A DNA stretch of 64,000 bases. Origin: Rhodothalassiaceae bacterium (GTDB lineage: Bacteria; Pseudomonadota; Alphaproteobacteria; Sphingomonadales; Rhodothalassiaceae). The stretch covers positions 248,001 to 312,000 of the forward strand of contig BPKC01000001.1 of NCBI GenBank assembly GCA_026004935.1, given 5' to 3'. Under the pieces are notes generated by a model. It made no database searches, was not told where the DNA came from, and was given only the letters and a program-made list of their open reading frames with translations. Below are positions 50,052-52,271 of this stretch, one piece after another. Both the position numbers and the translations under genes were made by a program. Positions within the stretch are counted from its first letter, which is position 1. Every line of letters begins with the position of its first letter.

Positions 50052-50951
50052 ATGGCGCTCGACTGGGACCGGCTGCGGATCTTCCACACGGTCGCCGAGG
50101 CCGGCAGCCTCACCCTTGCCGCGCGCAAGCTGGGGCTGTCGCAGTCGGCCGTCAGCCGCCAGATCCGCGCGCTCGAGGACTCCCTCAACACGGCCCTGTT
50201 CACCCGCCATGCCCGCGGGCTGGTGCTGACCCACGAGGGCGAGATCCTCTTCGAGGCGACCCGCGATGCCGCGCGCGAGATCGAGGAAGCCGAGGCCGCG
50301 CTGCTCGAGATGAAGGATCTGCCGAAGGGCCGGCTGGTGGTGACCACCATGGTCAGCTTCGGTTCCGTGTGGCTGACCCCGCATCTCAAGGACTTCCTGC
50401 GCCGCTATCCCGAGATCGAGCTCGAGCTCAATCTCTCAGACGAGGATCTCGATCTCGCGCGCCGCGAGGCCGATGTCGCGATCCGCTTTCATGCGCCGCA
50501 TCAGGCGGACCTCATCCAGCGGCCGCTGGTGAAGGTCCACCACCACATCTATGCCTCGCCGGAATATCTGGAGCGCAAGGGAATCCCGAAGCGCCCCGAG
50601 GATCTCGACCGCCACGACATCATCGTCTACGGGCCCACCCCGCCCGAGCCGATCAAGGACATCAACTGGACGCTCAAGATCGGCGCCCACGGGCGGGTGC
50701 GGCGGCCGGTGCTGCAGATCAACAACACCTTCGCGGTGGTCCAGGCGATCCGGGCGGGAATCGGGCTGGCCGCCGTGCCCGACTACCTCGTCGCCCATGA
50801 GAAGGGGCTGGTGCGCGTGCTGCCCGACCTCGAAGGCCCCGCCTTCGAGCTCTACTTCGTCTATCCGCGCGAGCTGAAGGGCTCCAAGCGCGTCACCCTG
50901 TTCCGGGACTACCTCCTCGAGAAGGTCCGCGCCGAGGCCAACATTCTCTAG
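50052..50951 (+). CDS. LysR family transcriptional regulator
   Basis: The 299-residue protein has the N-terminal winged HTH RLRIFHTVAEAGSLTLAARKLGLSQSAVSRQIRALEDSLNTALFTRHARGLVLTHEG. The C-terminal effector domain covers residues 90-290 (GRLVVTTMVSFGSVWLTPHLKDFLRRYPEIELELNL). It follows the peptidase gene in the same direction. An exact 15-base palindrome (50970-50984) lies 18 bases after its stop. Its target and effector are unknown. Confidence 0.92.
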   Translation: MALDWDRLRIFHTVAEAGSLTLAARKLGLSQSAVSRQIRALEDSLNTALFTRHARGLVLTHEGEILFEATRDAAREIEEAEAALLEMKDLPKGRLVVTTMVSFGSVWLTPHLKDFLRRYPEIELELNLSDEDLDLARREADVAIRFHAPHQADLIQRPLVKVHHHIYASPEYLERKGIPKRPEDLDRHDIIVYGPTPPEPIKDINWTLKIGAHGRVRRPVLQINNTFAVVQAIRAGIGLAAVPDYLVAHEKGLVRVLPDLEGPAFELYFVYPRELKGSKRVTLFRDYLLEKVRAEANIL

Positions 50952-50969
50952 CACCACACGCGACGCGTT

Positions 50970-50984
50970 TTGTGCAATGCACAA
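50970..50984. promoter_or_regulatory. Perfect palindrome TTGTGCA-A-TGCACAA, with a second inverted copy at 51117-51136
   Basis: TTGTGCA (50970-50976) and TGCACAA (50978-50984) are a perfect palindrome. The flanking bases ACGCGTTTTGTGCAATGC (50964-50981) reappear in inverted orientation at 51117-51136 as GCATTGCACA...ACGCGT, with two extra A. The two lie about 135 bases apart, and the second directly precedes the -35 box of the candidate sRNA promoter. GTGC-AAT-GCAC and CTGC-ATT-GCAC resemble the TGC-N3-GCA half-sites bound by PhaR-type PHB regulators, but this is only a resemblance. Confidence 0.5.
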
Positions 50985-51134
50985 CATTTTCAGCGGCTTG
51001 CAGTCGATTTCCTTCGCACAGGAGCCGCGGAAATCCCGGGGATCCGGCCTTTTCCGCGACCTGCCCTGAAGCGGCTGCAAGCGTTCAGTCAGAAGTCATG
51101 CGATTCATGCATAGCTGCATTGCACAAAAAACGC

Positions 51135-51163
51135 GTGACAGCGCCGGGCGGGATGCCTATATC
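51135..51163 (+). promoter_or_regulatory. Promoter of the candidate sRNA
   Basis: GTGACA (51135-51140), exactly 17 bases, TATATC (51158-51163). The start would lie near 51170. The inverted TGCATTGCACA element lies immediately upstream, and the hairpins of the candidate RNA begin at 51175. Confidence 0.5.
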
Positions 51164-51169
51164 GGCGTC

Positions 51170-51313
51170 GTGACGCGAGGGTGCTCGCATCGCACAACGA
51201 GACAAAAGCAAAGCCCCCGAGTTTCGGGCTGACGCGGGAGACCGGCCGGGCCTCTCCTCCTCCCCTCCCTCCCCTCCCCCCAAGCGACGCCGGCCGGTCT
51301 CCCATTTTCTTTT
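51170..51313 (+). ncRNA. Candidate small RNA or leader with anti-Shine-Dalgarno loop (cuckoo-like)
   Basis: After a promoter at 51135-51163 the plus strand can fold three hairpins. The first is GCGAG/CTCGC (51175-51188). The second is AGCCC/GGGCT around 51212-51230. The third is a perfect 14-bp stem, 51236-51249 with 51290-51303, closing a 40-base loop made almost entirely of C and T. The loop holds CCTCCTCCC at 51256-51264, the exact anti-Shine-Dalgarno motif of the cuckoo RNAs (CcsR) of alphaproteobacteria. ATTTTCTTTT follows the stem, as in an intrinsic terminator. The length would be about 145 bases. It could also be an attenuator leader of proC, whose start is at 51423. No protein gene fits here. 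Confidence 0.5.
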
Positions 51314-51422
51314 CCCCCTCTCTTCCCGCCGATCGCATCGCACCGGCCGGCGCATCTTTCCCCGCGCGGCGGAATCCCTATCTATCTTGAGAAACGGACA
51401 CGGCGAGCGAAAGGACCGGCGC

Positions 51423-52271
51423 GTGCAGGGCGAGAAGGCGGATGAAACCTTCGGGCTGCTCGTGATCGGCGCGGGCCGGATGGGCGGCGCGCTGCTCGAG
51501 GGTCTCGGGCGCGGCGGACTCGATGCCGCGCGGATCGCGGTGGTCGATCCGGCGCCCCGGCGTCTGCCTGACGGGGTGCGGCATTTTTCCGGGCTCGAAT
51601 CCTGGGCGGCGGCGGGCGTGCCGGCCGGGGCCGTGCTGCTGGCGGTCAAGCCCCAGCAGGCGGCCGGCGTGCTGGCCGGGCTCGAGGCGCTCGCCGCCCG
51701 CGCGCCGGCGTCCCTCGCCGATGCGCTGCTGATCTCGATCGCGGCGGGCGTGCCGCTCGCGGCGCTTCGCCGCACCGGACTGCCGGCGATCCGGGCGATG
51801 CCCAATCTGCCCGCCCGGATCCGGGCCGGCGTGACGACGCTTTACGCGGATGCGGACACCCCCGCACCGCCGCGCCGGCGGGCCGAGGCGCTGTTCGCGC
51901 GCGTGGGGCGCGTCATCTGGCTTGCGCGCGAGCGCGACGTCGATCTCGCCACCGCCGTCTCGGGCAGCGGGCCGGCCTATGTCTACGCATTCGCCGAGGC
52001 CCTCGAGGCGGCGGCGCGCGATCTCGGGTTTGCGCCGGAGGTGGCGGCCGCGCTCGCCCGGCAGACGGTGATCGGCGCGGCGCGGCTGATGGAGGAGACC
52101 GGCGCCGATCCGGCCGCGCTGCGCGAGGAGGTCACCAGCCCCGGCGGCACGACGGCGGCGGCGCTCGCCGTCTTCGGCCGCGACCGCGGGCTGGAGCGGC
52201 TGTGCGCCGAGGCGCTCGCCGCGGCCGCGCGCCGGGCCGATGAACTCTTTGGAGGAGAGGAGGCATCATGA
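51423..52271 (+). CDS. proC: Pyrroline-5-carboxylate reductase
   Basis: Read from a GTG at 51423 (AAGGA upstream), the protein has 282 residues; a TTG at 51387 is the alternative. FGLLVIGAGRMGGALLEGLGRGG is the NADPH loop, and VSGSGPAYVYAFAEAL with LREEVTSPGGTTAAALAVF form the proC signature. It reduces pyrroline-5-carboxylate to proline. The stop overlaps the start of a TetR-like gene (ATGA), so the two are coupled. The candidate sRNA or leader lies directly upstream. Confidence 0.92.
   Translation: MQGEKADETFGLLVIGAGRMGGALLEGLGRGGLDAARIAVVDPAPRRLPDGVRHFSGLESWAAAGVPAGAVLLAVKPQQAAGVLAGLEALAARAPASLADALLISIAAGVPLAALRRTGLPAIRAMPNLPARIRAGVTTLYADADTPAPPRRRAEALFARVGRVIWLARERDVDLATAVSGSGPAYVYAFAEALEAAARDLGFAPEVAAALARQTVIGAARLMEETGADPAALREEVTSPGGTTAAALAVFGRDRGLERLCAEALAAAARRADELFGGEEAS

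Follow-up and report, generated by a model that had tools for sequence, protein, structure and literature searches.

Layout of the lsrB–proC region

The window (the whole stretch of DNA analyzed, 64,000 nt of contig BPKC01000001.1 from a Rhodothalassiaceae bacterium) contains a gene for a LysR-type regulator and, downstream on the same strand, proC. The gap between them is 471 nt, from the lysR stop codon at 50951 to the likely GTG start codon of proC at 51423. The features of the region are as follows.

50052..50951, plus strand: lsrB/vtlR ortholog, LysR-type regulator P0001, start codon ATG at 50052
51098..51121, plus strand: LsrB box, palindrome ATGC-N7-GCAT (51098–51112) with GCATAGCTGCATT (51109–51121), of the form GCAT-N3-TG-N3-T
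51134..51139, plus strand: -35 element CGTGAC, matching CTTGAC at 5 of 6 positions; TGAC is kept in the congener
51157..51162, plus strand: -10 element CTATAT, 17-nt spacer from the -35 element and 48 nt from GCAT, the modal spacing of the family
51170..51313, plus strand: predicted small RNA of ~144 nt, start placed by the -10 element and its distance from the box, end placed by the T-rich tail
51170..51193, plus strand: 5' hairpin SL1, predicted by folding; relatives have a 5' hairpin here with a different sequence
51236..51303, plus strand: anti-Shine-Dalgarno (anti-SD) hairpin, 14-bp stem (51236–51249 with 51290–51303) and 40-nt loop, with CCTCCTCCC at 51256–51264
51304..51313, plus strand: T-rich tail ATTTTCTTTT, the putative 3' end based on sequence
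51423..52271, plus strand: proC, the next gene, above the TIGR00112 cut-off, likely GTG start; outside the RNA gene

Based on the position of the CGTGAC-N17-CTATAT promoter, the predicted RNA starts at about 51170, and folding of 51170–51313 yielded three hairpins with a free energy of -56.2 kcal/mol (z = -2.47; 3 of 200 shuffles were equally good). The initial annotation had listed a promoter with 17-base spacing, three hairpins, a perfect 14-bp stem, and a T-rich end, and we recovered all of these; the perfect stem is that of the third hairpin. Its description of a C/T-only loop with the cuckoo motif is accurate for CCTCCTCCC and for a core of 31 nt (51251–51281) that is pure C/T, but not for the remainder of the 40-nt loop (51250–51289), which contains G and AAGCGACG. 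The window hairpin scored 38, whereas none of 315 shuffled controls reached 22. A generic sigma-70 scan did not call the promoter because its -35 element is CGTGAC, and the tail hairpin was not counted as a standard terminator in the scan because its loop is too long.

The small ORFs that overlap the region (69 aa on the plus strand, 77 aa on the minus strand) had no Pfam match, and Rfam at the gathering threshold identified only a tRNA in the whole window. Weak miRNA matches in a permissive Rfam search of 50900–51450 (up to E 5) were rejected as chance. A DNA search of the genome with the RNA region identified one copy only. Judged from its sequence, the region looks like a small-RNA gene. 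Separately, an inverted pair of TTGTGCAATGCA (50970–50984 and 51116–51127) flanks the sequence separating lysR from the promoter, with the second copy overlapping the LsrB box; with one mismatch allowed, TTGTGCAATGCA has four matches in the window versus 0.02 expected.

The order of lysR, promoter, hairpin, and proC is identical in a congeneric species (G001, MAG J084; L009/L038). The hairpins of the two species align with 83% identity (E 2.6e-15), and the congener retains the promoter blocks AGCTGCATTGCACAAAA, TGACA, and CTATA as well as the CCTCTCCTCCTCCCC loop. Between these conserved blocks the congener sequence has diverged, and its loop is about 8–10 nt shorter. This shared anatomy at the equivalent place is more than chance.

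The upstream regulator

The best solved relative of the window LysR protein is LsrB of A. tumefaciens (PDB 9HH1, named as such in PMC11975290), with E 3.6e-85 and 46–47% identity. When A. tumefaciens LsrB was used as the query, the window gene was the sole match in the genome at E≤1e-85 (47% identity), and the two queries retrieved the same genes across the class. By these sequence searches in both directions, the window lysR is the ortholog of LsrB/VtlR. Relatives were collected by genome searches, as a related-locus search gave only two named relatives; the highest LsrB identity in the genome sample, in which no Rhizobiaceae seemed present, was 54%.

In rhizobia, LsrB/VtlR is flanked by trxB on one side and the AbcR small RNAs on the other (PMC7486931, PMC8844928). 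At lsrB loci of other families, four of five upstream genes scanned encode pyridine-nucleotide-disulphide oxidoreductases, and both of the two tested were above the TrxB cut-off. The order trxB–lsrB is thus kept elsewhere, with a variable downstream gene. The window LsrB contains zero cysteines in 300 residues; since redox control in rhizobia reportedly needs LsrB cysteines, an Agrobacterium-type redox input cannot be the same here, and the cysteine-free protein calls redox sensing into question as a general input.

LsrB box and promoter

Activation of abcR1 by LsrB involves GCAT-N3-TG-N3-T at -61 to -49, above CTTGAC-N17-CTATAT (PMC7486931, PMC8844928). In the window, GCATAGCTGCATT is a perfect match to the published consensus and lies exactly at -61 to -49 if the start is 51170; the promoter likewise has the published PabcR1 architecture, with one mismatch to CTTGAC in its -35 element. 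The palindrome has two exact matches in the genome, the second apparently inside a coding sequence.

Across the class, we searched 139 regions downstream of lsrB for ATGC-N7-GCAT (≤1 mismatch) followed 44–52 nt on by a -10 hexamer. Box and -10 element were found in 85 of these regions, as compared with a mean of 6.45 and a maximum of 10 after shuffling, and the modal spacing of 48 nt is that of the window; because the test relied on palindrome plus spacing, loci with diverged boxes are missed in this count.

Elsewhere in the window genome, a one-mismatch LsrB palindrome (G000:C1:1191211; L215:1400-1520, minus strand) lies upstream of a 63-aa ORF (P0002) that has a GAGGAG ribosome-binding site and no Pfam match, an arrangement resembling the VtlR-controlled small genes atu1667/BAB2_0512.

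Predicted LsrB-linked anti-SD RNAs across the class

At a score of at least 22, CCTCC-enclosing hairpins occur in 40 of 105 regions downstream of lsrB versus 0 of 315 shuffled regions. Their stems are wholly unlike in sequence (GCTATGACCC/GGGTCATAGC, GCGTTGGATCG/CGATCCAACGC, GCCGAAAAGG/CCTTTTCGGC, and GGGAGACCGGCCGG/CCGGCCGGTCTCCC). Thirty members of the order outside the window's genus could be aligned across the hairpin, a terminator, and a further anti-SD stretch (ATGAARCCTCCCTA), and from these thirty, with the window's genus excluded, we built a covariance model, R1. Because MAFFT misaligned the variable stems, R1 lacks the SL3 pairs, and a script was used to compare the stems instead, with shuffled sequences as the control.

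R1 matched 93 of 289 class genomes at E≤0.01; its E-values are rough, and if they hold, about three chance matches are expected. Among 69 genomes with both lsrB and an R1 match, the match lies <700 nt downstream of lsrB on the same strand in 54 (median 186 nt). Based on this linkage and on the variable downstream genes, the RNA belongs with lsrB rather than with proC. Many relatives in family f5 have no recognisable RNA at this place. For the LsrB-linked RNAs, no Rfam family reached its threshold. We propose to group them as LsrB-linked anti-SD RNAs, by a palindrome about 48 nt from the -10 element (48 nt in the window) and a CCTCC hairpin within 170 nt of the start (94 nt in the window), all downstream of lsrB; the 3' module of R1 is a third trait of the group. 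The trio of LsrB, box, and linked anti-SD RNA recurs in dozens of alphaproteobacterial families.

One genome has two tandem R1 copies downstream of lsrB. At two loci (L136 and L117), about 340–400 nt past the lsrB stop codon, and in two genomes (G283 and G178), the first copy is followed by another LsrB box with promoter and 5' hairpin, or by another R1 match; these tandem duplicates are like abcR1/abcR2. R1 also matches away from lsrB (L197, and G155:C1:1701292, the best score overall), so the model may pick up paralogs or related SorX/alpha-r8 RNAs.

The window RNA itself was not found in the R1 search because its 3' module is gone and its sequence has diverged. R1 gave a weak match to the congener (17.3 bits, E 0.044) and 37 bits for two members of the same family (L042 and L044). 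The 3' module of R1, ATGAARCCTCCC plus a GC-rich terminator, is absent in the window, and the congener locus L038 retains it as GCATGAAACCTCCCT with a terminator. By this comparison, the window has a short, derived form of the RNA from which the conserved 3' anti-SD module has been lost, and its assignment to the group is based on position, predicted promoter, and predicted hairpin.

Proposed function and alternative explanations

We consider it likely that the locus encodes a trans-acting small RNA of the AbcR type under LsrB control. Our analysis shows the orthology of the regulator, the box, the promoter spacing, and the hairpin, and shows that these are conserved together in the class; we infer that the RNA is transcribed and uses Hfq, that LsrB binds the box, and that the loop pairs with targets of the kind given below. 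LsrB, encoded immediately upstream, would bind the palindrome (-72 to -49) and thereby switch on the sigma-70 promoter, giving an RNA of ~144 nt whose long hairpin would present an unpaired loop bearing CCUCCUCCC. By analogy with AbcR1/2, the expected partners of this loop are GGAGG-type ribosome-binding sites in a set of mRNAs. Pairing, probably with the help of Hfq, which the window genome encodes, would block translation, and the targets would probably act in nutrient uptake and metabolism. Sites of the form GGGGAGGA-N1-10-ATG number 30 versus 3 for a reversed-pattern control. Some precede transporter-like genes (Na+ symporters and a TRAP binding protein, named by eye from sequence), and such sites are mainly ordinary Shine-Dalgarno sequences. 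The gene after proC (start 52268) has the ribosome-binding site GGAGGAGAGGAGG (within 52250–52270), of which a 10-nt stretch is perfectly complementary to the loop (CCTCTCCTCC).

The initial annotation had filed the RNA with the cuckoo/CcsR RNAs (RF02791), which are stress-induced, RpoH-controlled RNAs with CCUCCUCCC loops that modulate C1 metabolism. The loop motif CCTCCTCCC is identical, and one LsrB-linked relative (L107) resembles CcsR1 weakly (28.3 bits versus a threshold of 65.3). However, CcsR1-4 are tandem, linked to a DUF1127 gene, and processed from a 3' UTR, whereas the window has a single such hairpin, lsrB and proC rather than a DUF1127 gene as neighbours, and a promoter with an LsrB box and CTATAT. 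The check proposed with that annotation, a covariance search of the stem-loop, was run with Rfam models and identified neither CcsR (no match in the window up to E 5) nor alpha-r15, and we regard CcsR identity as highly improbable. The broader claim of a small RNA with an anti-SD loop fared better, as conservation, promoter anatomy, and genomic linkage all argue for it.

It is also very unlikely that, rather than encoding a separate RNA, the region serves proC as a 5' leader or attenuator or simply terminates lysR. proC is on the same strand with its start 110 nt downstream, and a proC-like gene is also next in two family relatives (L039 and L042); however, the region has its own promoter with a regulator box, conserved together with the hairpin, the anti-SD loop sequence is kept while stems change, and elsewhere the next gene encodes a ferric reductase, HlyD, PhyH, or GGDEF protein, in some cases on the opposite strand. 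An RNA that is AbcR-type by origin but degenerate in this species, at a locus that may be weakly active, would accord with a 3' module present in the congener (L038) and absent here, and with an LsrB without cysteine. This too seems unlikely, as the box is perfect, the -10 element is CTATAT, the hairpin is stronger than those of most relatives, and the loop sequence is kept between both species.

Comparison with known small RNAs

The 3' module of LsrB-linked relatives (ATGAAACCTCCCTA plus terminator) aligned with up to 44 bits to SorX (RF02784) and up to 37 bits to alpha-r8/MmgR/SisA (RF00519), both below threshold, and the window copy is without this module. SorX is cut from the 3' UTR of ompR-1, and alpha-r8 adjoins an FGase gene. 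We rejected SorX as the identity of the LsrB-linked RNAs, given the sub-threshold scores and its origin as an ompR-1 3' UTR product.

Among described systems, AbcR1/AbcR2 (alpha-r15, RF02345), known from Sinorhizobium, Agrobacterium, and Brucella, comes closest. LsrB activates AbcR1 (PMC8844928), which silences transporter mRNAs via anti-SD motifs; through CUCCUCCC and UUCCCCUC, AbcR1/2 silence mRNAs for transport and metabolism at the ribosome-binding site. Like the AbcR RNAs, the predicted window RNA lies directly downstream of lsrB/vtlR, with an LsrB box at -61 to -49 and a CTTGAC-N17-CTATAT-like promoter, in a host with Hfq available. AbcR has the anti-SD motif CUCCUCCC in a hairpin loop, and the window RNA likewise has an anti-SD motif that is unpaired in its predicted loop. 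Unlike AbcR, the window RNA has a different hairpin order, a long 40-nt loop, and one copy where AbcR has multiple copies per genome. The RF02345 model (40 bits) had no match in 50900–51450 up to E 5 and none in the window's own genome at E≤1, so we do not file the single-copy window RNA as alpha-r15.

Descriptions of alpha-r15 RNAs are confined to Rhizobiaceae and Brucellaceae, and in the open-licence papers searched, the regulator–RNA pair is described only from rhizobia, agrobacteria, and brucellae. The recurrence across families contrasts with this two-family range and with a 2025 study that states LsrB to be unique to Rhizobiales (PMC11975290). Tentatively, and with somewhat more doubt than confidence, we suggest that trxB, lsrB, and an LsrB-activated RNA with multiple anti-SD motifs may be ancestral to Alphaproteobacteria, with the rhizobial AbcR pair as one diverged branch. 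In the window lineage, LsrB would have lost its redox cysteines and the RNA would have shed its 3' module, leaving one hairpin with a 31-nt pyrimidine loop as a broad, multivalent Shine-Dalgarno binder. Such an ancestral circuit is testable, and it offers many natural variants for asking how anti-SD loops choose their targets.
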